Source of the DNA: Bacteroidota bacterium
Lineage (GTDB): Bacteria > Bacteroidota > Bacteroidia > Bacteroidales > GCA-2748055
Direction: 5' to 3'
Length of the DNA stretch: 33,284 nucleotides
NCBI GenBank assembly: GCA_003648635.1
Contig: QMPQ01000010.1
Coordinates: forward strand, 1 to 33,284
The notes under the pieces are model-generated. The model saw only the letters and a list, made by a program, of their open reading frames with translations. It ran no database searches and was not told the DNA's origin. The translations under genes were made by a program, and so were the position numbers. Positions 13,146 through 26,238 of this stretch are shown piece after piece (the stretch's first letter is position 1; each line of letters starts with the position of its first letter).

Positions 13146-13751
13146 CTAATATAACTGATCAATGGGCTTTTTGGAAGAACGGTCACTTTCTCTGTACTCA
13201 CTCACTGTCAACCCGGTACTCTGCTTGAACTGGCTGGATAGGTACTGAACGCTGTTGTAATCCATTCTAAAAGCTATCTCGCTCAGGGTGAGCTCCTCCT
13301 GGTCGATAAGCTCTTTGATCCTCTCAATCTTATTCAGGATGATAAATTTCTCCAGAGTTATGTGTTCCTGCGACGAAAAGATTCTGGAGAGATATGAGTA
13401 AGAGAGACCCGTCTTCTCAACCAGGTATTCCGATTTCCTTACAATAGAGTCCACATTATTCATATAATGAATCAGTTCGACTACTGCCAGTTTGATCTGC
13501 TCGACCAATCGGCTATCTCGTGTTACAATGAGATCCATACCCAAATCAACCAGTAAGGTCCGGATATAGTCGTAGCTAATTTCCTGCTCATCATAGCTGA
13601 TGGTGGCCTTTCCCAGGCCTATCTCATCCACTCCTATCCCTGCTGCCTCAAGCTCCTCCTTGATCACACGGATGCAACAGTGGCTGATCATATTCTTAAT
13701 ATGAATGGTAGTAGTAATCAATTTCCCGGCTATTACAATGACTAACCGCAT
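13146..13751 (-). CDS. AraC-type regulator with degenerate HMA-like N-terminus
   Basis: This is a 201-residue transcription regulator. The C-terminal half is an AraC double helix-turn-helix (TGLSYSYLSRIFS near 115-127, and LSEIAFRMDYNSVQYLSSQF near 157-176). The N-terminal part (IHIKNMISHCCIRVIKEEL, 16-34, then a beta-alpha-beta pattern) resembles a known Bacteroidota AraC group whose N-terminus looks like a heavy-metal-associated domain with NMVCxRC. Here the first Cys of CxxC is Ser23, and Cys25-Cys26 form a vicinal pair. The first ATG (13751) is used, but a TTG at 13721 would give a more family-like start. It is divergent from the PqqD operon across 118 bases and may control it. Confidence 0.75.
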   Translation of the reverse strand: MRLVIVIAGKLITTTIHIKNMISHCCIRVIKEELEAAGIGVDEIGLGKATISYDEQEISYDYIRTLLVDLGMDLIVTRDSRLVEQIKLAVVELIHYMNNVDSIVRKSEYLVEKTGLSYSYLSRIFSSQEHITLEKFIILNKIERIKELIDQEELTLSEIAFRMDYNSVQYLSSQFKQSTGLTVSEYRESDRSSKKPIDQLY

Positions 13752-13869: not shown

Positions 13870-14124
13870 ATGCAAATCAAAAAAAACATTGCCGTGAGCG
13901 AAACAGGGTTTGTGTTCAACCCTACCACCGGTGACTCATATTCCCTTAATCAAGTTGGACAGGAGATTCTGGGCCATCTTGGCGAGAACAGATCGCCGGC
14001 TGAAATCACCTCCCTGATGACCAGCACCTACGATATTGATCCCCCCAGCTTTGAGAAGTACTTTTTCGACTTCATCAGCATGCTGAGGCAATTTGAACTT
14101 CTGGACGAAGAGAATGAAAACTAA
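13870..14124 (+). CDS. PqqD-like protein (RiPP recognition element fold)
   Basis: This 84-residue small protein matches the PqqD family pattern: an N-terminal beta-hairpin (IAVSETGFVFNPTTGDSYSLNQVG, only part of it conserved), a helix with the typical VGQEILGHL and then SPAEITSLMTSTYDID, and a final helix with FFDFISMLRQFELL. PqqD-type domains bind leader peptides of ribosomally made peptides and hand them to a modifying enzyme. Related stand-alone members are also found with kinases and ligases. It is the first gene of a six-gene operon and overlaps the ATP-grasp gene by 11 bases, which argues that it serves that ligase. No precursor peptide gene is obvious nearby. Its acidic tail (DEENEN) is unusual. 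Confidence 0.8.
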   Translation: MQIKKNIAVSETGFVFNPTTGDSYSLNQVGQEILGHLGENRSPAEITSLMTSTYDIDPPSFEKYFFDFISMLRQFELLDEENEN

Positions 14125-15157
14125 AATCACAGTAGCCCTTACAGGATTAAACAACACGGATAATCCCGGACCAGGGGTCCCGGTGATACGTGGCATCAGG
14201 GATTCAAAAGAATTTGATCCCCGGATCATAGGTCTGGCCTATGAGAACCTCGAACCAGCTATTTATATGGATGGAATAGTCGATAAAACTTACCAGGTTC
14301 CCTACCCCTCAGAAGGATCAGATGTGTTGTTACAGCGGATCCTGGATATCCATGAAAAAGATCCCATTGATGTACTGATTCCCAACTTTGATGCAGAGCT
14401 CTATGCATTTATGCGGTCGGAAAAGATATTGGAGAAGGCAGGCATTAAGACATTCCTCCCCACCCTGGAGCAGTTTGAAGAGCGCCACAAATCCAACCTC
14501 CCTGAATTCGGTGAGAGGTACGGTCTTTCGGTTCCTTTCAGTAAACCCATTATGCGGATCGATGAGATAGAAACACTCAAAGACGATTTTGAATACCCTT
14601 TGATGGTCAAAGGGAAGTTTTATGATGCTTTCCTGGCCTACAACGAGGAGCAGGTAAGGATGAATTACAATAAGATCAGCGCCAAGTGGGGACTCCCCGT
14701 CATTATACAGGAGTTTATCAAAGGCACTGAGGTCAATGTAGTGGCACTGGGAGACGGAGAGGGCAATACCATCGGTGCCGTCCCCATGCGTAAACATTAC
14801 ATCACCGATAAGGGAAAAGCCTGGTCTGGGGTAACCCTGGATGACCCAAAGCTGCTCGATCTGACCAACAAAATCATTAAAGCCATGAAATGGCGAGGCG
14901 GTATGGAGCTGGAGCTGGTAAAATCCAACAAGAACGAACTGTTCATCATCGAGATCAATCCAAGGATACCTGCATGGGTCTATCTAGCCGTTGGAGCCGG
15001 CCAAAACCTGCCCGAAGCACTGGTTAAACTGGCACTGGGAGAAGAGGTGAAACCCTACACCAGTTATGAGGTAGGGACCATGTTTGTCCGTTACTCATAT
15101 GACCTGATTACCAACCTGAAAGAATTTGAAAAACTCTCCACACTTGGGGAACTATAA
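14114..15157 (+). CDS. ATP-grasp ligase (CarB/PylC-like)
   Basis: This is a 347-residue cytosolic ATP-grasp enzyme that would form an amide or peptide bond through an acyl phosphate. The N-terminal Rossmann-like domain (1-110) includes DVLIPNFDAEL. The central ATP-grasp domain includes YPLMVKGKFYDA (ATP-binding Lys), VIIQEFIKGTEVNVVAL and a C-terminal metal-binding segment (MELELVKSNKNELFIIEINPR) whose Glu and Asn residues should hold Mg-ATP. It resembles carbamoyl-phosphate-synthase-like ligases, including PylC. ATG 14114 overlaps the PqqD-like gene; an in-frame ATG at 14093 has no conserved sequence. The PLP decarboxylase gene follows after 12 bases. The acceptor and donor are unknown. Confidence 0.88.
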   Translation: MKTKITVALTGLNNTDNPGPGVPVIRGIRDSKEFDPRIIGLAYENLEPAIYMDGIVDKTYQVPYPSEGSDVLLQRILDIHEKDPIDVLIPNFDAELYAFMRSEKILEKAGIKTFLPTLEQFEERHKSNLPEFGERYGLSVPFSKPIMRIDEIETLKDDFEYPLMVKGKFYDAFLAYNEEQVRMNYNKISAKWGLPVIIQEFIKGTEVNVVALGDGEGNTIGAVPMRKHYITDKGKAWSGVTLDDPKLLDLTNKIIKAMKWRGGMELELVKSNKNELFIIEINPRIPAWVYLAVGAGQNLPEALVKLALGEEVKPYTSYEVGTMFVRYSYDLITNLKEFEKLSTLGEL

Positions 15158-15169
15158 TATAGGAATATC

Positions 15170-16516
15170 ATGGAAAAGAGACCGTTTGAAAGACCATTTA
15201 TAAAAAAACTGCAGGCCGGGATGCCAAGCAAATTTGGCATGAAAACCCAGGCTGAACCCATCACACATATTGACGAAAATGCAGTGCCTGAGCTACTGGC
15301 CAAACATGGATCACCACTCTATGTGATCTCAGAGAATACCATCCGGGAAAAATACAAGAAGGCCAGGCATGCTTTTACCACCCGCTATCCGAAAGTCCAG
15401 TTTGCCTGGTCCTATAAGACCAACTACCTGGATGCAGTGTGCCGGGTCTTTCACCAGGAAGGCTCCTGGGCTGAAGTGGTTTCGGGATTTGAATATGACA
15501 AGGCCATCAATAACGGTGTGAAGGGAAGCCAAATTATCTTCAATGGTCCAGACAAAACCGATGAGGATCTGAAAAAAGCCATCGAAAACGACTCTCTGAT
15601 CCACATCGACCATTTCGATGAGATGTATTCAATCATCGCCATTTCCGAAAACTCTGGGAAGCGACCCAAAGTTGCCATTCGTGTCAACATGGATACCGGT
15701 ATATACCCCATGTGGGACCGCTTCGGTTTTAATTATGAGAACGGGGATGCCTGGGATGCCATCAACCGGATCATGATCAGTGAGAAAATGGAACTTGTGG
15801 GTCTTCACACCCACATAGGAACTTACATGCTTGCTTCCAATGCTTACAAAGTGGCTGCCGGGAAGCTGGCCGACCTGGCTTTTGGTATTGAGAGAAAGTA
15901 CGGAGTGAATATCAAATACCTGGATCTCGGTGGAGGATTTGCTTCCCAAAATACTCTGAAAGGGGCCTACTACCCCGGATCCGATACCGTACCTTCCGTT
16001 GATGAATATGCGGACGCCATCTCTTCGGCCATCCTGAATTCAGAACTGAATCCCAAAAACCTGCCCACACTGATCCTGGAGAGCGGAAGGGCCCTGATCG
16101 ACGATGCCGGGTACCTGCTTGGTACGGTTATCGCCAACAAACGCCTTTCCAATGGCAATCGGGCCACCATCGTGGATGTGGGGATCAACCTGCTCTTTAC
16201 CTCCTTCTGGTACGAACATGAAGTCTACCCCGCAGCCGCCGTTTCCGAACATATGGAAGAGACCACCATTTATGGTCCCCTGTGCATGAACATCGATGTG
16301 ATCAGAGAAGCCATTCAATTCCCTTTACTTAAAAAAGGGGACCAGTTTGTGATCAAACGAATCGGTGCTTACAACATGACCCAGTGGATGCAGTTTATTA
16401 CCCTGCGCCCCAATGTGGTTCTAATCGATACCAAAGGGAATGACCATGTGATCAGAAAGCAGGAAAACATGGAGCTTATCCGCCAGCAAGAGGTGATCCC
16501 CGACCATCTGAAGTAG
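15170..16516 (+). CDS. Fold-type III PLP decarboxylase (DAP/Orn/Arg decarboxylase family)
   Basis: This is a 448-residue pyridoxal-phosphate enzyme of the alanine-racemase/diaminopimelate-decarboxylase fold. PLP would bind Lys83 in WSYKTNY. HTHIG (213-217) and DLGGGF (252-257) form the cofactor phosphate and ring contacts, ESGR (304-307) replaces the usual EPGR, and the C-terminal domain gives catalytic Cys372 (GPLCMNID) and Tyr401 (GAYNM). In DAP decarboxylases the segment after the Cys is CESxD and in ornithine decarboxylases CDGxD. Here it is CMNID, so the substrate is probably neither. It lies between the ATP-grasp ligase and the channel fusion in one operon. It may make an amine or D/L-amino-acid building block for the ligase, but this is inference. 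Confidence 0.88.
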   Translation: MEKRPFERPFIKKLQAGMPSKFGMKTQAEPITHIDENAVPELLAKHGSPLYVISENTIREKYKKARHAFTTRYPKVQFAWSYKTNYLDAVCRVFHQEGSWAEVVSGFEYDKAINNGVKGSQIIFNGPDKTDEDLKKAIENDSLIHIDHFDEMYSIIAISENSGKRPKVAIRVNMDTGIYPMWDRFGFNYENGDAWDAINRIMISEKMELVGLHTHIGTYMLASNAYKVAAGKLADLAFGIERKYGVNIKYLDLGGGFASQNTLKGAYYPGSDTVPSVDEYADAISSAILNSELNPKNLPTLILESGRALIDDAGYLLGTVIANKRLSNGNRATIVDVGINLLFTSFWYEHEVYPAAAVSEHMEETTIYGPLCMNIDVIREAIQFPLLKKGDQFVIKRIGAYNMTQWMQFITLRPNVVLIDTKGNDHVIRKQENMELIRQQEVIPDHLK

Positions 16517-16542
16517 TCTGGATATAAACCTAAAAATCAGCT

Positions 16543-18735
16543 TTGAAGCAATCTGATGACATTAAACTATTCCTGAAAGCCATACCCAACAGCTATGGTC
16601 AGGTGTTCTTCTCGGACCAGCGTCTGTTTGCAGGAATCCTTTTAGTAGTGACCTTTTTTGATCTCTATGCAGGAGTGTTTGGATTGCTTTCGGTGATCAT
16701 CACCAATCTGGTGGGCTTCCTTCTGGGATTTGATAAAAAGACCATCTCAAAAGGGGTATTTGGATTCAACAGCTTACTTGTGGGATTGGGGCTTGGAGTC
16801 TATTTCGAACCCAGCTTATACCTGGTACTGGTCATCCTCATGGGGGCCATTCTGACCCTTTTAATCGCAGTATCGCTTCAAGGGGTGATTGGAAAATATG
16901 CCCTGCCCTATCTCTCCATTCCCTTCCTGCTTTCCATCTGGGTCATGACCCTGGCTACCAAGGAATTTACAGCACTGGGAATCAGCGAACGGGGCATCTA
17001 TACCTTTAATGACCTCTATACCATTGGGGGTGATCCCCTGGTCAGGATTTATGAATGGTGGAACGACCTGCAGCTGCCCAAATCCCTCCGGGTTTATTTT
17101 ATCTCCCTGGGGGCCATTCTTTTCCAGTACAACCTGCTTTCAGGAATCATCCTCAGCATTGGTTTATTGCTGTTTTCCAGGATCTCATTTTCACTGTCGC
17201 TTATCGGATTCTATACCGCATACCTCTTCTATGAAATCATCGGTGCCGATATATCAGAATTAAGCTACAGCTATATTGGCTTCAACTACATACTTACCTC
17301 CATTGCAATAGGCGGATTTTTTATTATACCTTCCAAAAGATCGTATCTCTGGGTGGTATTGCTGATCCCTATTGTGGCCATGATTACCATCAGCCTTTCC
17401 AGGGTGTTTGCCATATTCAGCCTGCCCATCTATTCCCTGCCCTTTAACCTGGTGGTACTTTTGTTCCTGTATGCATTGAAATTCAGGCTCAGACCTTCTG
17501 TAAAGCTCTCCGAGGTTCTCATTCAACACAATTCGCCTGAGAAAAACCTCTATGCCTTTCACAACGATTTGGTGCGGTTCAGGCAGCATGAACAGAAGCC
17601 TGTCATATTGCCTTTCCTGGGGACCTGGACCATATCCCAGGGCCATGACGGGGAGCATACCCATAAAGATGAATTCCGGCATGCCTGGGATTTTGTGATC
17701 ACCAACATGGAGGAGAAGCAATTTATGGGGAGTGGTGACCTGCTGACCGATTACTTCTGCTACGACAAGATGGTCCTGGCCCCCGCCGACGGAACAGTGG
17801 AATTTGTGGCGGACCGCATCCCCGACAATGTGGTGGGAGAGGTCAACCTCAAAGAGAATTGGGGAAATACAGTCATCATCAAACATGATGAACATCTGTA
17901 TACTTCCCTGAGTCATTTAAAAGAGGGCTCAATCAAGGTAAAGGAAGGTGACACCATCAAAGAGGGTGTTGAGATCGGACGTTGCGGAAACTCGGGAAGG
18001 TCCCCTTATCCCCATCTCCATTTTCAGATCCAGGAAACCCCCTACATCGGATCGGTCACAAAGGAGTATCCAATCTCTTATCACATCCTGCACCATGAAA
18101 ACAGCTTTGACCTGAAATCATTTGAGGTCCCTGGATTGGGCGATCAGATATCGAACATTGAGCGAAACGAACTACTTTACAACGCTTTTCATTTCATTCC
18201 GGGCAAGCGGTTCCATTTCGATGTAATCCTCAATGGGGAGCAGAGCGAATGCACCTGGGAAGTAAATACCGATCCCTACAACAATGCCTACATCCGGTGT
18301 CAGCAGTCAGGCGCCATGGCCTACTTTGTCAACGATGGCAACCTGCTGTTCTTTACTCACTATTCAGGCCATAAGAAAGATCTGCTTTACTACTTTTTCA
18401 TGTCTACATTCCAGGTTCAGCAGGGCTTTTATCAGGACCTCACCATCACTGACAGCTACCCGCTAAACCTGATCTTCAACCAGCCCCTGCTGGGTGTGCA
18501 GGACCTGGTAGCTCCGTTCTGGAAATTCCTTCGCTCTGATTTCAAATGCACATATGATTGGATCGACAGTGACATGGCCCCTACAAAGATCAGGCTGGCC
18601 TCTTCAGCAAAGAATTCCATGGCAGGAAAAACGGTAAGAACATTCGAATTCACCGTGGTCATCAATGAAAAAGGGATTCGCAAACTGACCGTGAATTCGA
18701 AAAACCTGAAGCTGGAGGCCACATGTACAGGATAA
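16543..18735 (+). CDS. Urea-transporter-like channel fused to an M23 peptidase domain
   Basis: This is a 730-residue inner-membrane protein with two parts. Residues about 20-320 form some ten hydrophobic helices with features of the urea transporter family (GFNSLLVGLGLG, a YLSIPFLLS helix, and an internal repeat with GFNYILTSIAIGG), a passive channel fold. Residues about 350-500 form an M23 (LytM-like) zinc peptidase domain: His372, His374, His380 and Asp383 before the first strand, His458 in SLSHLKEG and the HLHF motif (His491, His493). A further beta-rich region of about 220 residues follows. The start is TTG 16543, since an in-frame stop precedes it and no ATG occurs before the first helix. 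Its last 13 bases overlap the next gene. The peptidase domain probably faces the periplasm. Confidence 0.85.
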   Translation: MKQSDDIKLFLKAIPNSYGQVFFSDQRLFAGILLVVTFFDLYAGVFGLLSVIITNLVGFLLGFDKKTISKGVFGFNSLLVGLGLGVYFEPSLYLVLVILMGAILTLLIAVSLQGVIGKYALPYLSIPFLLSIWVMTLATKEFTALGISERGIYTFNDLYTIGGDPLVRIYEWWNDLQLPKSLRVYFISLGAILFQYNLLSGIILSIGLLLFSRISFSLSLIGFYTAYLFYEIIGADISELSYSYIGFNYILTSIAIGGFFIIPSKRSYLWVVLLIPIVAMITISLSRVFAIFSLPIYSLPFNLVVLLFLYALKFRLRPSVKLSEVLIQHNSPEKNLYAFHNDLVRFRQHEQKPVILPFLGTWTISQGHDGEHTHKDEFRHAWDFVITNMEEKQFMGSGDLLTDYFCYDKMVLAPADGTVEFVADRIPDNVVGEVNLKENWGNTVIIKHDEHLYTSLSHLKEGSIKVKEGDTIKEGVEIGRCGNSGRSPYPHLHFQIQETPYIGSVTKEYPISYHILHHENSFDLKSFEVPGLGDQISNIERNELLYNAFHFIPGKRFHFDVILNGEQSECTWEVNTDPYNNAYIRCQQSGAMAYFVNDGNLLFFTHYSGHKKDLLYYFFMSTFQVQQGFYQDLTITDSYPLNLIFNQPLLGVQDLVAPFWKFLRSDFKCTYDWIDSDMAPTKIRLASSAKNSMAGKTVRTFEFTVVINEKGIRKLTVNSKNLKLEATCTG

Positions 18736-20075
18736 TTATCTCTATATGGCTTTTGGGGTTTGTCTCCTTGGGTATCAAGGCACAGGAACCGGCAGATTTT
18801 AACACCATCAACAGGAAAACCTATCAGCTTTACCTTTCCCAGAAATGGGATAGTGTGATTATTATGGGGAAGCAGGCTCTTAAGCAGGAGATGGACTTCT
18901 ACTACCTGAGGATGAGAATTGGGATCGCCTATTACAGCAAAAAACATTATCGAACTGCGGCACGTCATTTCTCTGCCGCACTGGAACAGAACCAGGGCGA
19001 TCCTGTAGCCCTGGAATACCTGTATTTCTCAAGGCTCTATTCGGGACAATCTGAACAGGCCGGGTGGACCAGGGAAGAGTTCAAAGGAGAGCTGGCCCGT
19101 AAGCTGCCTCCCCTGGCACCCAGGTTTTTTGAAAATCTCTCGCTTGAGTACCTCTACAACAAAGGAGTGGATGATGATATTTTTAAGGATCCCGCAGAGC
19201 TATATCCCCTGAGTACCTCAGGTCAACAATCAACCACGAGGCACTTCTCTAATGCCTCCCTTGCATTTACCAACCGCATCGCACCAGGTGTTCGGCTATC
19301 CCATGCTTTTACATATCTGTCAAAATCCAACCACTATTTTTCCAGTGACGGAATAACCGCGATCTATATGTCAGAGCAGCAAGTCAGACAGTATCAGTAT
19401 TACCTTTCACCTGAATTTGCCACCCGTACGGGTTCTCTCTTTACGCCCATGTTACATATCATCGGTATCAGTTCTCAGGTGCCATATGACTCCAACCAGG
19501 CATTCCAGGGAGGTTCCAGTATAAGGCTGGGCTACTTGAAGCAAACTGATATTGTTACCGGATTGGGATTTGTCCAGGAGCTGGGTAAGGTGAACCTGCA
19601 CCTTGGAGCATACTACAGCAAGCTTAACCAGGCAGACCAGTTCCAAAACAGATTGGGTATTACCTGGTTCCCAATGGGAAACCTCAATCTCTATGCAGGT
19701 GGCTATGTAAACAGCCAGTATGAAATTAATCCGGGATTGGATGGTGTCATCAGGATCATCCCAGAACTTATGTTTGGATTTACCATTGCTGAAAAGGTGT
19801 GGATCGATATGAATGGAAGCATGGGAGATATGACCAATTATCTTGAAAACAACGGCATGATTGTTCACAACAGCTTTGCCGAGGTGATTGAAAAGAAAAT
19901 AAAATTATCACTTTCCATTCCAATAACAGAGGGGAAGTCAATGTTTTATATGGGTGGGATGTGGACCTCAAATAGAAGTGACTTCAGTGCTTCGGATCCG
20001 GGTACAACTGATGTAAGCAATACGATATACTATAATGCAATCTCAATATACGGAGGACTAACATGGAAATTTTAA
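18723..20075 (+). CDS. TPR plus outer-membrane beta-barrel protein
   Basis: This is a 450-residue exported protein. Residues 1-20 are a signal peptide ending near IKAQ. Residues about 30-115 contain TPR-like helix pairs (YLSQKWDSVIIMGKQAL, then RIGIAYYSKKHYRTAARHF). From about residue 135 the sequence changes to amphipathic beta strands with aromatic girdles and ends in GGLTWKF, with the terminal Phe expected for an outer-membrane barrel of about 14-16 strands. It is not a clear member of a named family; YaiO-type proteins are a possible relative. Its ATG overlaps the end of the channel gene by 13 bases and its own end overlaps the next gene by 13 bases, so it is translated with the operon and is presumably its outer-membrane component. 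Confidence 0.75.
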   Translation: MYRIIISIWLLGFVSLGIKAQEPADFNTINRKTYQLYLSQKWDSVIIMGKQALKQEMDFYYLRMRIGIAYYSKKHYRTAARHFSAALEQNQGDPVALEYLYFSRLYSGQSEQAGWTREEFKGELARKLPPLAPRFFENLSLEYLYNKGVDDDIFKDPAELYPLSTSGQQSTTRHFSNASLAFTNRIAPGVRLSHAFTYLSKSNHYFSSDGITAIYMSEQQVRQYQYYLSPEFATRTGSLFTPMLHIIGISSQVPYDSNQAFQGGSSIRLGYLKQTDIVTGLGFVQELGKVNLHLGAYYSKLNQADQFQNRLGITWFPMGNLNLYAGGYVNSQYEINPGLDGVIRIIPELMFGFTIAEKVWIDMNGSMGDMTNYLENNGMIVHNSFAEVIEKKIKLSLSIPITEGKSMFYMGGMWTSNRSDFSASDPGTTDVSNTIYYNAISIYGGLTWKF

Positions 20076-20695
20076 GACATTACATACTGCTGTTTTTGTT
20101 CAGCATGATGATCCCTGCAACTACTGTTTCAGGTCAGAGTTTCACAGAAACCAAAAATGCTTTTCAGCAAAGCTACATCCAGGAAGCCACAGGTGAAACC
20201 AGCGGTGCCATCACCAGTTTGAAAAATGTATATAGCGAAAAATCTTATGAAGTCAACTTGCGTCTGGGCTGGCTAAGTTACCAGGCAGGCAGCTTCACCG
20301 AATCCACGGCCTACTATAACAGGGCCATAGACCTGATGCCCTATGCCATCGAACCCAGGTTTGGAGTGGTCTACCCGGGAGCAGCCATGGGCAACTGGAC
20401 CATGGTAATGGCCCAATATGAGAAGATCCTGGAGATAAGTCCCAACAACTCCATCGCCATGCACAGGCTGGGTTTGATCCTATATGGGAAGGCAGATTAT
20501 GAATCGTCCAGAAAATATTTCGAAAAGGTGGTCAATTTATACCCATTTGATTATGACGCCCTGAGCATGCTGGCCTGGTCCCATTTCAAATTGAACAATT
20601 TCCGGGAGGCGAAAGTACTTTTCCAGAAAGCCCTGCTGCATACCCCGGGTGGAACTTCAGCCATGGAGGGACTTGAGCTATTAGATATGCCTTAG
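20063..20695 (+). CDS. Periplasmic TPR-repeat protein
   Basis: This is a 210-residue exported TPR protein. Residues 1-25 are a signal peptide (hydrophobic core YILLFLFSMMI, cut near TVSGQ). TPR helix pairs follow, for example LRLGWLSYQAGSFTESTAYYNRAIDL, then AMHRLGLILYGKADYESSRKYFEKVV and ALSMLAWSHFKLNNFREAKVLFQKAL, each shown here only in part as conserved. It probably works as a protein-interaction scaffold in the periplasm beside the barrel protein. The ATG is preceded by a good ribosome binding site (GGAGG, 20052-20056) inside the previous gene. It is the last gene of the operon. No terminator hairpin is visible behind it. Confidence 0.85.
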   Translation: MEILRHYILLFLFSMMIPATTVSGQSFTETKNAFQQSYIQEATGETSGAITSLKNVYSEKSYEVNLRLGWLSYQAGSFTESTAYYNRAIDLMPYAIEPRFGVVYPGAAMGNWTMVMAQYEKILEISPNNSIAMHRLGLILYGKADYESSRKYFEKVVNLYPFDYDALSMLAWSHFKLNNFREAKVLFQKALLHTPGGTSAMEGLELLDMP

Positions 20696-20727: not shown

Positions 20728-20775
20728 CATTTGGAAAGAATGAATTTCATAACTTGGGAATTCAATCTTCCCAAC

Positions 20776-23343
20776 ATGAAAACTTCGCATCTGTTCTTAT
20801 GGATAGCCCTCACCGGTCTGGCCAGTGCTTGCAGTAACTCCCGACCGGAAAAAGAGGATACTGTATTTAACACCACTTATACAGGAGAGCGCCTGAACCG
20901 TGTGGCTTTCCCCATGGGGGGAATGGGTGCCGGAATGATCTGTCTGGAGGGTACCGGAGCCATCTCTCATGTTTCGGTCAGGCATAAACCTGATGTATTC
21001 AATGAGCCCTTTATGTTCGGGGCCATCGCTGTAGAAGGCCTGGAAAACGGTTCCAAAGTTCTGGAGGGCCCGGTACCCGAACGCAAGTTGTATGGTGCCC
21101 CCTATACAGGAAACGGAAGTTCTAATAGTAGCTATGGATTTCCCAGGTTTGATCATGCTGAATTCCTGGCAAGATTCCCTTTTGCATCAGTGAAGCTTCA
21201 AGATGATGACCTCCCCCTTGATGTAGAAATTAAAGGCTGGAGTCCCTTCAGCCCAGGCGAGGAAGATCTATCCTCCATGCCCATGGCCGCACTTGAGTAT
21301 ACCTTTGTCAACCGGACTGACTCAGTTTTAAAAATGGTGTTTTCATACCATGCCGAGAACTTTATGCGGATCCGCGGGGCGAATGAATGGGGAATGACTT
21401 ATGAAAATAAGGGACATAGTATAGAGAAGACCCGGAACGGATTTATTCTGGCGCAGTCCTGCTTCCCTGATAAGCCACATTACAAAGGTGATTTTGCCAT
21501 CTCCACCCTGGAGGATGCCACGGTGGATCACCGGTGGTTCAGGGGGGGCTGGTACGATGCCCGCACCATGCTATGGAAAGATATTGAACAAGCCCAGGCG
21601 GTTTCTGATACAGCTGTCTCCGGGTCTGCCAATGCCTCACTGTATGTTCCATTTTCATTGCATCCAGGAGATTCAAAAACCATACACCTTCTGATGTCGT
21701 GGTATGTTCCCCATTCGGATCAGAGGTTTGGAGGCATTCCTGCAGTACAAGAGGATGCTTTCGCCTGTGATCCTGCCACCGCTTGTTGTTCGCCAGAATA
21801 TACATCCCAATTCTATGAGCCCTGGTACTCCCAAAAGTTTGCAGACATCTATGAAGTATCTCAATTCCTGGTATCAAATTACAAAGAACTGCGAGATCAA
21901 TCTGATCTGTTCAGCCAGACCTTCTATGCTTCTGATCTTCCTCCGGAGGTCCTTGAGGCGGTTTCTGCTAACCTGGGGATATTAAAATCCCCCACGGTGC
22001 TCAGACAGAAAAACGGGGCTTTATGGGCATTTGAGGGTTGTTTTGATGCAGGCAGCGGATGTTGTATCGGATCCTGTACACATGTGTGGAATTATGCTCA
22101 GGCCATTCCCCACCTCTTCCCTCGTCTGGAACGAAGTCTACGGGAAACAGAATTTCTGCAAAGCCAGGATGAAGCGGGTCACCAGAACTTCCGGTCTGCC
22201 CTGCCTATCCAGTACACCGATCATGGCTTTCATGCAGCAGCCGATGGCCAGCTGGGGGGAATGATGAAGGTTTACCGCGACTGGCGTATCTCAGGAGATA
22301 CACAATGGCTACAGGCCCTCTGGCCAAAAATCAAGTCGAGCTATGAATTTTGTTCACACAGCTGGGATCCTGACAGGATAGGGGTACTGGTAGAGCCTCA
22401 CCACAACACCTATGATATAGAATTCTGGGGACCCGATGGAATGTGTAGCAGCATCTATCTGGGTGCAACCCTGGCCATGATAGAAATGGCAGAAGCCCTC
22501 GGCGAGGATATCACTTCTTTCCGGAATATCCTGGACAATGGAATCAGGTATATGGTGGATAATCTTTATAACGGGGAATATTTTATCCAAAAAACCACCT
22601 GGAAAGGCCTGAGAACTCCTCCTCCCGATGAACACCTGGAGGCCAACTGGAATATCAATTACAGCAAGGAAGCCTTTGACATTCTGAAAAAGGAGGGCCC
22701 CAAATACCAGTATGGGAACGGGTGCCTTGCAGATGGTATAATCGGTGCGTGGTTTAATGCTGTATGCGGACTGCCGGAGTTCCTGGACCGAGAAAAGGTT
22801 CATAGTCACCTGAATTCCATTCACCAGTACAATTTCAGAACCGATCTGTCTGATCATGTAAATCCGCAACGGCCCGGATTTGGAGCAGGAAAGGACGGTG
22901 GACTGCTTCTTTGTACCTGGCCACAGGGTGATCAACCCTCACTACCCTTCGTTTACAGCAATGAGGTATGGACCGGCATTGAATACCAGGTGGCTTCCCA
23001 CCTGATGATGCATGGCGAGGTGGAAAAGGGACTGGAAATCGTTCAGGAAGTAAGAAAACGGTATGATGGTACCTTTAGAAACCCTTTTAATGAATACGAG
23101 TGTGGTCACTGGTATGCAAGGGCATTGTCAAGTTATGCATTAATGCAAGGTCTTACCGGTCTCTTTTATGATGCTATAGATAAAACACTTTATATAAATT
23201 CGCAGTTGGGTAACAATTTTCAATGCTTTATTTCCACCGAAACCGGTTATGGATTGGCCGGACTACGAAACGGCGAGCCATTCGTAGAGGTGGTTGTTGG
23301 ACATATTGAGGTTGAAAGGTTTGAAAACAGAACCAGTCAATAA
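20776..23343 (+). CDS. GH116-family beta-glycosidase lipoprotein
   Basis: This is an 855-residue glycosidase related to non-lysosomal glucosylceramidase/bile-acid beta-glucosidase (GH116), which cleaves beta-glucosides or beta-xylosides. ATG 20776 gives a signal peptide with a good lipobox (LASAC, Cys19), so it is lipid-anchored. The N-terminal beta domain starts with RVAFPMGGMGAGMICLEGTG, typical of the family. The alpha-barrel domain contains CTHVWNYAQAIPHLFP, ADGQLGGMMKVYRDWRISGD, HNTYDIEFWG and the C-terminal GHWYARALSSYALMQGLTG stretch. The exact catalytic Glu and Asp cannot be assigned safely without an alignment. It lies 80 bases after the TPR gene and 15 bases from the end of the convergent fkp gene. 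It is more likely a glycan-use gene than part of the upstream operon. Confidence 0.85.
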   Translation: MKTSHLFLWIALTGLASACSNSRPEKEDTVFNTTYTGERLNRVAFPMGGMGAGMICLEGTGAISHVSVRHKPDVFNEPFMFGAIAVEGLENGSKVLEGPVPERKLYGAPYTGNGSSNSSYGFPRFDHAEFLARFPFASVKLQDDDLPLDVEIKGWSPFSPGEEDLSSMPMAALEYTFVNRTDSVLKMVFSYHAENFMRIRGANEWGMTYENKGHSIEKTRNGFILAQSCFPDKPHYKGDFAISTLEDATVDHRWFRGGWYDARTMLWKDIEQAQAVSDTAVSGSANASLYVPFSLHPGDSKTIHLLMSWYVPHSDQRFGGIPAVQEDAFACDPATACCSPEYTSQFYEPWYSQKFADIYEVSQFLVSNYKELRDQSDLFSQTFYASDLPPEVLEAVSANLGILKSPTVLRQKNGALWAFEGCFDAGSGCCIGSCTHVWNYAQAIPHLFPRLERSLRETEFLQSQDEAGHQNFRSALPIQYTDHGFHAAADGQLGGMMKVYRDWRISGDTQWLQALWPKIKSSYEFCSHSWDPDRIGVLVEPHHNTYDIEFWGPDGMCSSIYLGATLAMIEMAEALGEDITSFRNILDNGIRYMVDNLYNGEYFIQKTTWKGLRTPPPDEHLEANWNINYSKEAFDILKKEGPKYQYGNGCLADGIIGAWFNAVCGLPEFLDREKVHSHLNSIHQYNFRTDLSDHVNPQRPGFGAGKDGGLLLCTWPQGDQPSLPFVYSNEVWTGIEYQVASHLMMHGEVEKGLEIVQEVRKRYDGTFRNPFNEYECGHWYARALSSYALMQGLTGLFYDAIDKTLYINSQLGNNFQCFISTETGYGLAGLRNGEPFVEVVVGHIEVERFENRTSQ

Positions 23344-23358
23344 TTTCTTAGGAACAGA

Positions 23359-26238
23359 TCAGGAACGGGAGACCTGGAAACCGGTTTTTGAAATGGTGAA
23401 ATCCACAAACCTGGCACGGGCATTGGGTGGATTTGATTCCAAATTCTGCTTTGTCCTCAGGGCTGCTTCTGCAGATTTGGCAAACATCATCAGATAGCCG
23501 CCACCACCTGCTCCCAGCAATTTGTATCCCAGCAGGTAATCATCCACCCTCTCAATAATCTTACGAATCACCTCCGGATTGGTGCCTTCGTCCAAACGCT
23601 GATTCATGGCCCAGCTGTTGGCCACCCTTTCGGCCAGACCCTCATAATCATTTCCAAGGATGGTATCAAAGGTCTCCCGGGCATGGACCTTCATCTCACT
23701 GAAAATCTCCAGGTGCTTTGAAGAATTCAGGAACATGGCTTTTACAATCTCTCCCAGTATGTCATGGGCCACCCTGGTGACACCTGTATAATACAGCAGC
23801 ATCATCTCACGGGTTTCACGAGAGGTAAAGAGCTGATCGGGTAACCATTTCACACCTGGATTTTGCCTGATCCCCGCTTCAGTTTCCAGCAACTTAACTC
23901 CTTCAAAAATCCCTCCAAACTGGTCCTGCCAGCCACCTCCGGTGGTCAGCATCTGTTCCAGGATCAGCGTACGATAGGCTATAGCATGTTTGTCCCAGTT
24001 CAGATCACAAAATTCGCTCAAGGTTCCCAGAACCGTGGCAGCCAGGTTTGAACTTGTTCCCAGTCCCGATCCCTTGGGGATAGCAGCCAGCAAAGACATC
24101 TCTATGCCACAGCCAAAGGCCTTCAACTGCGTGGCCAGGTCGGGATACTGCTTCTGCGAAAACAGGGGGCCGAATCCGGCCAGTACAAGGGCCGCCTTTG
24201 GAATGGAGAATCCGCCTCCCAGTTGATCATAGTTATTTAAATCTTCAAAACTTTTGATCTCTGTCTTCTCTCCCAGATCAATGGACCGCAGCACAATTTT
24301 TGGCTCCTCAATGGGCCTTGCATAAACCTGCAGGGGAAGTTGTCCATTCAACTCCACTGAAAGGTTGACCACCTTACCTCCCTCCATAATACAGTAGGGT
24401 GGTGTATCTGTCCATCCTCCTGCAAGATCCAGCCTTACCGGGCTTCTTCCCCAGAGTATCTGATCATCCAGAATGTTCCTTGAGGGACTTACAGGTTCCG
24501 TTCGCAAAGTTTCGATCATCTCCTGACGAAGTATGTCAAATGCCTGTTTTTCGTAGAAAGCCGACTGTTCCCTGTTACCGACTACTCTGGCCCGGAACAT
24601 GGAATCGTTAATCCTTTTAATAAGCCCGTCGGTGATGGAAAGATCCGCAGGCAGTTCCAGAAGTGATCTTCTGTACTCGGTCGATGTCTTCTCCAGATCG
24701 AGGAAATAGAAGATGCTCTTGTTATGATTGGCAACCAGTTTCGGGAGAACCAGGAGCTTCAGTTCATCTCGCTGCTGGTATAGTTTTTCCACATTGGCCC
24801 TGTCAGATAACTCTTTTGCGGAAAGCCGTTCCGAGTCAAGCCAAAGTGATCCCTTCCTGGCTCCACCCAGCATTTCCAGCAAAACCATTTCCAGCTTGTC
24901 AACAGTCCCAATGGGAAAAAGAGCCAGCTTATATATGGAAACATCCTTTGCAAATCCTGCTGCTTCAGGGGATATACCACGTTCAGCCAACCATTGCTCA
25001 AGGCTCTGGTGCATCCAGATGGCTCCCTTATCCAGTGAATCTCTGAATCCATCGTCGTAGCCATAGATCCGCATGCCATATTCGTCTCCCTGCAGCGGTA
25101 CAAAATCAAGACAGATATTAGCAGGTAATTCCACATCCCAGGAATTTGAGGGAATCCCGGTGAGAATATGATGGTGATTCAGTTTCCAGCTATTGGGAAT
25201 ATGACTGTTTTCAATCCAGATATGGTGTTTGTCGCTTTCTAAACTTTTTAGCTTTACATCTGCATTTTGTTGAAAAATGGATGGATGATATTCTTTCTCC
25301 CGAGCGTGATTCAGGCGCTGATCCATAAACCTGTTCTGGAGCCTCAAACAAGATTCAATCATATCACTGTTGCTGCCGAAATGATAAAACTCTCCCTCTT
25401 GTAATGGAACCAGCTTAACGGTAAGCTCAGACAGTTCCGGGTCTGTTGATTCCGACTCATCACCAAAGGCCGTTAACATATCACTGTACAGATCATAATG
25501 CTCAGGTACACCTCCCGAAAATGATTGGCTACCCTCCTCCCAGCCTGAAAGCTTCATCAGTTTCCGGGTTGCCCGATTATTCATCATCACTATCCCCGAA
25601 TCCATCAGGTACAGATATTCCTGTGCCAGGTCTCTCAACTCTTCAACACTTGGCTTTTGTTTTACAAAAGAGAGCCTGTCTTCCTGATGGCGACGGCTGA
25701 AAAACACCCCATGACGTGATGCAATGCTGTCTTCCACCCAGATTCCAAATAGCAGCACATCTGCTTCAGGCAGCTTCCTGAAGCGGTCCGAAGAGATAAA
25801 CATCACATCGCCGCTGCCAATGAGTGTTGTATAAGTCTCAGGGGCATTCTCAAGAATTTTCTGATAAAACCCAGCTTGAAAATCAAGCAGCTTCTGATCC
25901 AGGTGCTGTCCTTTCGTCCACCTGAATACTGGCAATGGCAAAAGCGATTTTCCATATGGAGCATAGGCAGGTAACCTTCGGCTCTCACCTCCGGAATGAA
26001 TTACCATGTGCTTTCGAAGCCTCAACCACTCCTCCATGGAGCCTTCGAATCCGGATTGCTGCCAGGCCGACCACAAGATGTGGGCTGTCCCTCCGCCTGA
26101 CCCAAGTTTCATCCCCTCCGGATCTGAATCACAAAACCACTCCTTAGCATTCTTATTTTCAAGTTCATGGAAAACAGAGGGCATCCCGGCAGGCAGGCTG
26201 ATTAATCTCTGTATGGGTATGTGAGGATTTCTTTCCAA
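23359..26238 (-). CDS. fkp: Bifunctional L-fucokinase / GDP-L-fucose pyrophosphorylase
   Basis: This 959-residue cytosolic enzyme turns L-fucose into fucose-1-phosphate and then GDP-fucose, the salvage route that lets Bacteroidota fucosylate capsules and glycoproteins. The length is close to that of Bacteroides fragilis Fkp. The N-terminal pyrophosphorylase half has GSGGGTAHILW (46-56) and HSGGESRRLPAYAPYGKSL (81-99), the nucleotide-binding signature. The C-terminal GHMP kinase half has the first motif GRSPVRLDLAGGWTDTPP (about 595-613), the ATP loop PKGSGLGTSSNLAAT (about 720-735) and GAGGGGYLMMF (about 905-915). Both halves look complete. A TATCTTTA element upstream may be its promoter. Confidence 0.95.
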   Translation of the reverse strand: MERNPHIPIQRLISLPAGMPSVFHELENKNAKEWFCDSDPEGMKLGSGGGTAHILWSAWQQSGFEGSMEEWLRLRKHMVIHSGGESRRLPAYAPYGKSLLPLPVFRWTKGQHLDQKLLDFQAGFYQKILENAPETYTTLIGSGDVMFISSDRFRKLPEADVLLFGIWVEDSIASRHGVFFSRRHQEDRLSFVKQKPSVEELRDLAQEYLYLMDSGIVMMNNRATRKLMKLSGWEEGSQSFSGGVPEHYDLYSDMLTAFGDESESTDPELSELTVKLVPLQEGEFYHFGSNSDMIESCLRLQNRFMDQRLNHAREKEYHPSIFQQNADVKLKSLESDKHHIWIENSHIPNSWKLNHHHILTGIPSNSWDVELPANICLDFVPLQGDEYGMRIYGYDDGFRDSLDKGAIWMHQSLEQWLAERGISPEAAGFAKDVSIYKLALFPIGTVDKLEMVLLEMLGGARKGSLWLDSERLSAKELSDRANVEKLYQQRDELKLLVLPKLVANHNKSIFYFLDLEKTSTEYRRSLLELPADLSITDGLIKRINDSMFRARVVGNREQSAFYEKQAFDILRQEMIETLRTEPVSPSRNILDDQILWGRSPVRLDLAGGWTDTPPYCIMEGGKVVNLSVELNGQLPLQVYARPIEEPKIVLRSIDLGEKTEIKSFEDLNNYDQLGGGFSIPKAALVLAGFGPLFSQKQYPDLATQLKAFGCGIEMSLLAAIPKGSGLGTSSNLAATVLGTLSEFCDLNWDKHAIAYRTLILEQMLTTGGGWQDQFGGIFEGVKLLETEAGIRQNPGVKWLPDQLFTSRETREMMLLYYTGVTRVAHDILGEIVKAMFLNSSKHLEIFSEMKVHARETFDTILGNDYEGLAERVANSWAMNQRLDEGTNPEVIRKIIERVDDYLLGYKLLGAGGGGYLMMFAKSAEAALRTKQNLESNPPNARARFVDFTISKTGFQVSRS

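Follow-up and report, generated by a model that had tools for sequence, protein, structure and literature searches.

Here we describe a six-gene operon of a member of the Bacteroidales (Bacteroidota bacterium, contig QMPQ01000010.1, positions 1 to 33,284; this whole stretch of 33,284 nucleotides is the window referred to below). Its first gene encodes a small PqqD-like protein that very probably docks, as judged from sequence patterns, on the N-terminal tail of a decarboxylase encoded two genes downstream, that is, on an enzyme and not on a precursor peptide. The six genes lie co-directionally on the plus strand between positions 13870 and 20695. Their open reading frames (ORFs) were verified at the coordinates proposed in a first-pass annotation made from the DNA alone, and the junctions it described are correct to the base: three overlaps (11, 13 and 13 bases) and two spacers (12 and 26 bases). 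Pfam also backs its naming of PqqD, the ATP-grasp ligase, the decarboxylase, the fusion of a urea transporter (UT) to an M23 peptidase, and the tetratricopeptide repeats (TPR). The operon comprises the following features, with lengths in amino acids (aa).

13870-14124, plus strand: PqqD-like protein of 84 aa, a discrete recognition element (RRE) of the lasso-peptide type, RREs being the domains that recognise ribosomally synthesised and post-translationally modified peptides (RiPPs) (Pfam PqqD, PF05402, E 7.7e-8)
13948-13950 and 14059-14061, plus strand: codons of N27 and residue 64 of the PqqD-like protein, both predicted peptide-contact residues
14114-15157, plus strand: ATP-grasp ligase, 347 aa from the ATG at 14114 (Pfam PF15632, 1.6e-11; NCBIfam PRK12767 type); the mechanical ORF begins earlier, at the TTG at 14093
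15170-16516, plus strand: fold-type III pyridoxal phosphate (PLP) decarboxylase, FigC/LysA-like, 448 aa (Orn_Arg_deC_N 3e-30; Orn_DAP_Arg_deC 8.9e-13)
15185-15238, plus strand: leader-like N-terminal tail of the decarboxylase, residues 6-23, F-E-R-P-F-I-K-K-L-Q-A-G-M-P-S-K-F-G
15185-15202, plus strand: [Y/F]xxPx[I/L/V] motif within this tail
16543-18735, plus strand: UT-M23 fusion (Pfam UT 2.8e-64; Peptidase_M23 2.6e-17), in which a urea transporter (aa 12-312) is followed by the M23 zinc peptidase at about aa 350-515 and, at about aa 540-730, by a C-terminal beta domain; the start codon is TTG, with ATG at the same place in the relatives L035 and L036
18723-20075, plus strand: predicted outer-membrane beta-barrel protein with N-terminal TPR and signal peptide (from sequence; weak Pfam TPR)
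20063-20695, plus strand: secreted or periplasmic TPR protein, the last gene of the conserved block (TPR_2 8e-21)

The barrel assignment is drawn from the sequence alone, namely from a signal peptide, a beta-rich C-terminus and a terminal Phe. Apart from the weak TPR hit, the protein matched nothing in Pfam, including any barrel family (outer-membrane TPR porins of the YaiO/PgaA kind were considered).

The arrangement is far beyond chance. In an order-wide sample of 39 loci, the gene order PqqD, ATP-grasp, PLP decarboxylase, UT-M23, barrel and TPR is full or nearly so in 35, the completeness of some of these being judged at the detection limit for the fast-evolving barrel. Within the family of the window, UT-M23 occurs in 17 of the 28 genomes, and all six genes stand together and in order wherever contigs are long enough; the 11 family genomes without a strong UT-M23 match were also checked, and ten have none at all while one has an M23-type match only. 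Across 247 genomes of the order, the ATP-grasp ligase, the decarboxylase and UT-M23 are each detected in 101-104, with pairwise phi coefficients of 0.925-0.95 (Fisher p about 1e-57 to 1e-61); the exceptions to co-occurrence are few and several are incomplete genomes. The operon is found in 42% of the sampled genomes of the order. Cultured carriers include Cyclobacterium, Algoriphagus, Ancylomarina and Labilibaculum, and the same gene order recurs in other classes of the Bacteroidota, where identity falls to about 40%. In the most distant copies the barrel lacks the fused TPR, and one such barrel is weakly similar to Porin_OmpG. In two distant loci no TPR gene was detected, and in its place a small secreted protein that has no Pfam match lies just upstream of PqqD (L221, 8109-8564, minus strand; L223, 10275-10766, minus strand).

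Four loci depart from the full order. Three stop after the decarboxylase, and one is cut off by the end of its contig behind the ligase; each of these genomes has UT-M23 elsewhere, in two cases with the barrel beside it. Split operons break between the decarboxylase and UT-M23, separating a cytoplasmic trio (PqqD, ligase and decarboxylase) from an envelope trio (UT-M23, barrel and TPR). Because the order is kept, co-occurrence is near-perfect and both halves are retained after a split, the six genes form one system. The single system proposed in the first-pass annotation has thereby held up, with the order recurring across many families. The split in turn supports a division between making or processing a compound and moving it. 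Among the loci read, one (L041, G026:C33, 3394-8794) carries a single in-frame stop in each of the ligase, decarboxylase and UT-M23 genes; three such stops suggest that this copy is either decaying as a unit or mis-assembled.

The PqqD-like protein has as its nearest solved structures the lasso-peptide RREs TbiB1 (2.9e-9) and TfuB1 (1.7e-6), followed by PbaB1, and these lasso RREs have leader complexes in the PDB. Structural and mutational work published in 2026 demonstrated that, in the related LppB, D70 bonds the leader Tyr and N33 fixes a kink at the leader Pro, and that PbaB1, with Q79 and G42 in their stead, prefers Trp (PMC13381572). Alignment places PqqD residue 64 on LppB D70 and N27 on LppB N33; TbiB1 and TfuB1 also have Asp opposite residue 64, and PbaB1 has Gln there and Gly opposite residue 27. 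N27 is invariant (176/176). The contact residues defined by structure and mutation elsewhere are therefore the same ones that are conserved or covary here, and the protein has the hallmarks of an RRE, a PqqD-type winged-helix domain with the cleft Asn and either Asp or a covarying replacement.

The partner of this cleft would be the tail of the decarboxylase. About 30 N-terminal residues of this enzyme lie outside its alignment with FigC, which starts at residue 34, and the LysA-like paralogue of the same genome lacks them. The tail follows the consensus K-x-x-[F/Y]-E-[R/K]-P-x-I-x-[K/R]-...-G-x-P-x-K-F-G and so contains YxxPx[L/V/I]-like residues, the recognition motif of lasso, LPP and pyrroloquinoline quinone (PQQ) leaders (PMC12710340, PMC10368454, PMC13381572). 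The pattern [YFW]xxPx[LIV] is present in the tail of all 127 sequences, and in the larger set of 176 P9 and K21 are invariant, with no indel and constant spacing. Among the other ORFs of the same loci, the loose motif appears in 19 of 1238 (1.5%) and its strict form in none of the 1238.

The most specific signal comes from covariation. Over all columns of PqqD, decarboxylase and ligase (127,555 inter-protein pairs), the strongest pair joins PqqD residue 64 to decarboxylase residue 6, the aromatic residue of the motif, both in 113 operons (z 12.6, next 9.0) and in the extended set of 176 (z 15.0, next 10.6). Asp or Asn at position 64 goes with Tyr6 in 94 of 94 cases and Tyr, Ser or Ala with Phe6 in 80 of 80, and His is found once with each. 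The rule was obeyed by 49 of the 49 informative cases among 50 sequences fetched later. When traits evolving independently of each other were simulated on the ligase tree, at most 164 of 176 agreed. Averaged over the whole tail, covariation showed no enrichment relative to the body of the enzyme; only single residue pairs stand out. The first-pass annotation had PqqD presenting a peptide to modifying enzymes. The peptide-binding half of this idea is supported, and the separate peptide substrate has given way to what is very probably the tail of the neighbouring decarboxylase. The parts and the docking lock were already known; what is new is the use of the lock on an enzyme.

Active-site conservation, counted over 104-137 non-identical sequences per protein, indicates that none of the three enzyme domains looks dead. 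The decarboxylase belongs to the AR-fold (fold-type III) PLP family, with the Schiff-base Lys, the PLP contacts and the catalytic Cys all present, and K83, H213, E304, R307, C372 and D376 are invariant in 127 sequences. Its nearest PDB chain is N-citrylornithine decarboxylase (7kh2, 1.8e-58), and its clade includes several enzymes that act on conjugates, namely FigC, SbnH, AcsE, MccE and BtrK. The pocket was mapped through the FigC alignment and the published FigC structure (PMC7857480). It reads C372-M373-N374-I375-D376, with T344, W347 and Y348 on the specificity helix. Met373 stands at the position of the acidic residue of ornithine and diaminopimelate (DAP) decarboxylases, no Arg corresponds to R343 of DAP decarboxylase (DAPDC), and the FigC citrate ligands H357 and R387 are replaced by I375 and Q405 in 127 of 127 sequences. 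These three features make it likely that the substrate is bulky and neutral, for example an N-acylated or conjugated amino acid. An ordinary LysA (DAP decarboxylase) is ruled out by the pocket residues, and the NCBIfam lysA model gives 222 bits against a cutoff of 298; an N-citrylornithine decarboxylase of the rhizoferrin pathway is ruled out by the replaced citrate ligands, with 238 bits for NF041039 against a cutoff of 500.

In the ligase, K166, E265, E267, E280 and N282 are invariant (137 sequences). Its AlphaFold2 (AF2) model (pLDDT 90) is closest to 2pn1 (Z 29.2), with PylC (Z 26.9) and the L-amino-acid ligase 3vot (Z 25.4) also high among the matches, and the modelled fold is consistent with, though not specific for, amide formation between amino-acid-type substrates. 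Since the ATP-grasp and decarboxylase active sites both appear intact, amide formation and decarboxylation are reasonable activities to predict for the pair, and our best guess for the product is a decarboxylated amino-acid amide. A graspetide cluster was considered and ruled out, as no precursor was found and the ligase is of the PRK12767/ATPgrasp_Ter type.

The envelope half of the operon is dominated by the UT-M23 fusion, whose AF2 model has a pLDDT of 91. In structural comparison the UT half resembles human UT-B (Z 37.3) and dvUT of Desulfovibrio (Z 36.8), and it carries two LPxx[TS]xPF signatures (L121, P122, S125, P127 and F128; S298, P300 and F301); the model places it in the urea transporter fold family, with urea transport itself predicted at most. 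Members of this family are passive channels, and in those known both termini are cytoplasmic. The M23 half matches LytM/M23 structures (Z about 14), and H374, D383, H458, H491 and H493, its zinc ligands and catalytic His, are invariant in 104 of 104 sequences. Lys and Arg abound in the linker that follows the last helix (3.4 per sequence). By homology, the UT topology would place the peptidase in the cytoplasm, which would argue against a plain periplasmic wall hydrolase. The C-terminal beta domain is confidently predicted, and none of the PDB structural matches listed covers it.

Taken together, we lean towards a six-protein, envelope-linked pathway in two modules, a proposal that we hold to be somewhat better than an even bet. 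PqqD would bind the decarboxylase tail through the YxxPxL lock and hold the enzyme beside the ATP-grasp ligase, a tether that is the simplest mechanistic model. The ligase may form an amide between two amino-acid-type molecules, or between an amino acid and a small acid; the decarboxylase held next to it would at once strip the alpha-carboxylate from the conjugate, giving the neutral amide of a decarboxylated amino acid. The UT channel might then let either the product or one of its precursors pass the inner membrane, and the M23 peptidase fused to it could trim a peptide partner. At the outer membrane, the same compound would be handled by the barrel and TPR proteins. Passage of a product outwards, to act at the outer membrane as the first-pass annotation had it, would be one direction, and import may be the other. 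Four elements are deduced from the parts: the sequence of the reactions, the chemical class of their product, which way it is transported and what M23 cuts.

Several points weigh against this picture. On the ligase tree each of the two traits switches about nine times, which is the basis of the covariation, and when a strict sign test is confined to well-supported branches, too few pairs are left for significance; the 50 later sequences are 61-87% identical to their nearest earlier one and so not independent in descent. Docking on the tail is a prediction from residue patterns, and the idea that PqqD also contacts the ligase comes from analogy with other RRE systems. The ATP-grasp fold is too widely shared to point to a substrate. 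On the envelope side, the charges of the UT loops are compatible with either orientation, and the pore may pass something unrelated to the product of the enzymes.

Of the alternatives, the one that survives best is import or salvage, in which a small amide or a compound derived from the wall enters through barrel and channel and, once trimmed by M23, is metabolised by the ligase and the decarboxylase. The passive nature of UT channels, the family indicated by the fold match, would suit such a route, as would the action of M23 relatives on peptidoglycan, the presence of DAP decarboxylases in the decarboxylase family and the two-module structure of the operon. The pocket, however, lacks the residues that bind DAP (Met373 and the missing counterpart of R343), and an ATP-consuming ligase beside a decarboxylase is more typical of synthesis, so that we regard import as unlikely.

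Less likely still is that the tail of the decarboxylase is itself the substrate, presented by PqqD to the ligase for modification, for example at the invariant K21, with later cleavage by M23. Beyond the motif, only K21 (176/176) and G23 are conserved at 98% or more within the tail, and if the motif Tyr is taken as lasso position -17 (PMC10368454), they fall at positions -2 and +1, with no indel in 176 sequences. This match nevertheless concerns 2 of about 19 positions and could be chance, and both residues may be there for structural reasons or to contact the RRE. Also counting against it, we know of no ATP-grasp enzyme of this type that modifies Lys on a folded enzyme. With similarly slender prospects, the decarboxylase might be at once an enzyme and a RiPP-like substrate with a built-in leader and a short core, K21-F22-G23 corresponding to lasso positions -2, -1 and +1; if true, this self-carrying, enzyme-borne modified peptide would define a new class of post-translational pathway.

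The weakest candidate, a classical RiPP system in which PqqD binds a separate, unrecognised precursor and the decarboxylase motif is an inhibitory mimic or a coincidence, has in its favour that discrete RREs usually serve precursor peptides (PMC7470986, PMC12710340), but it is very improbable: a relaxed motif search of the short ORFs of the loci found no plausible precursor, turning up just one unrelated antisense ORF besides a piece of the decarboxylase itself at a contig edge; the gap upstream of PqqD in the window measures about 120 bases; the covariation singles out the tail of the decarboxylase; and no second copy of the tail sequence was found in the genome of the window. Thus no precursor with leader and core was found near the operon, and the motif sits on the decarboxylase instead.

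Comparison with known systems helps to place the tethered pathway. The discrete RREs of lasso, LPP and PQQ biosynthesis (TbiB1, TfuB1/FusB1, LppB and PqqD) share the domain, the YxxPx[L/I/V] motif, the Asp-Tyr rule and the invariant Asn. There, however, the motif lies on the precursor peptide and not on the N-terminus of a PLP decarboxylase, and the present operon lacks the macrocyclase, kinase or radical-SAM enzyme of those pathways. The N-citrylornithine decarboxylase FigC/FslC of rhizoferrin biosynthesis has the same fold, the same catalytic residues and a Met next to the catalytic Cys; in contrast, the operon has an ATP-grasp ligase in place of the NIS (siderophore) synthetase, and the tail falls outside the FigC alignment. 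The logic of ligase, small protein and decarboxylase resembles that of butirosin biosynthesis, where BtrJ is an ATP-grasp ligase. BtrJ loads Glu on the small carrier BtrI, and once bound to this carrier the amino acid is the target of the decarboxylase BtrK (PMC7857480), whereas the small protein of the operon is an RRE and not an acyl carrier, and the operon encodes no phosphopantetheine carrier. PylC and the PRK12767-type ligases share the fold of the ATP-grasp protein and NCBIfam PRK12767 similarity is detectable, but at 16-19% identity and with NCBIfam scores far under the cutoffs the substrate is not predictable. Likewise, each half of UT-M23 has its family fold, with the LPxxSxPF signatures and intact zinc ligands of UT-B, dvUT and LytM/M23, yet the operon fuses both in one chain with an extra beta domain. 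The open-access literature searched held nothing relevant on the gene set, the UT-M23 fusion or a link between an RRE and a decarboxylase, in agreement with the first-pass annotation, which knew of no described pathway with this set.

The finding is real, widely conserved and coherent. RRE domains serve to find RiPP clusters, and the one described here, canonical lock included, appears to work for an enzyme. Where a discrete RRE has no precursor peptide, it may therefore be the sign of an enzyme scaffold, and genome mining would overlook this class for want of a precursor. Because the operon is so widespread in the Bacteroidota and their relatives, its task is probably to make or handle, at the cell envelope, some common compound that has yet to be described.

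Around the operon, three neighbours were recorded.

13146-13751, minus strand: divergent AraC-family regulator (HTH_18 9.3e-14)
20731-23340, plus strand: GH116 glycosidase, 35 bases past the operon
23362-26238, minus strand: protein of 959 aa beyond GH116, syntenic within the genus

The AraC-type protein is a possible regulator of the operon, being syntenic in the genus and in 11 of the 39 loci of the order, some of them from other families. Its N-terminal stretch resembles a heavy-metal-associated domain, with weak CopZ/MerP matches. GH116 was ruled out as a seventh operon gene, as this neighbour is not conserved.

Some loci carry inserted genes. In several genera a secreted protein of about 220-300 aa sits between ligase and decarboxylase (read in L041, L045, L084, L088 and L097 and deduced from a gap in L042, L043 and L046). 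A C-terminal sorting domain of type IX secretion was confirmed in the inserts of L045 and L084, making the insert a possible surface-exposed partner. A membrane acyltransferase (HGSNAT_cat / Acyl_transf_3) lies between decarboxylase and UT-M23 in two genera (L081, 6408-7448, minus strand; L083, 6550-7584, plus strand) and may acylate the product. These extra genes (type IX-sorted protein, HGSNAT/acyltransferase-3, IF-2B-like protein and PKD protein) vary by locus and suggest no common reaction. Finally, an ATP-grasp paralogue with 28% identity is found without PqqD or decarboxylase in L119 (5294-6346, oriented; G091:C58), where it adjoins a secreted, predicted barrel protein and a large TPR protein.

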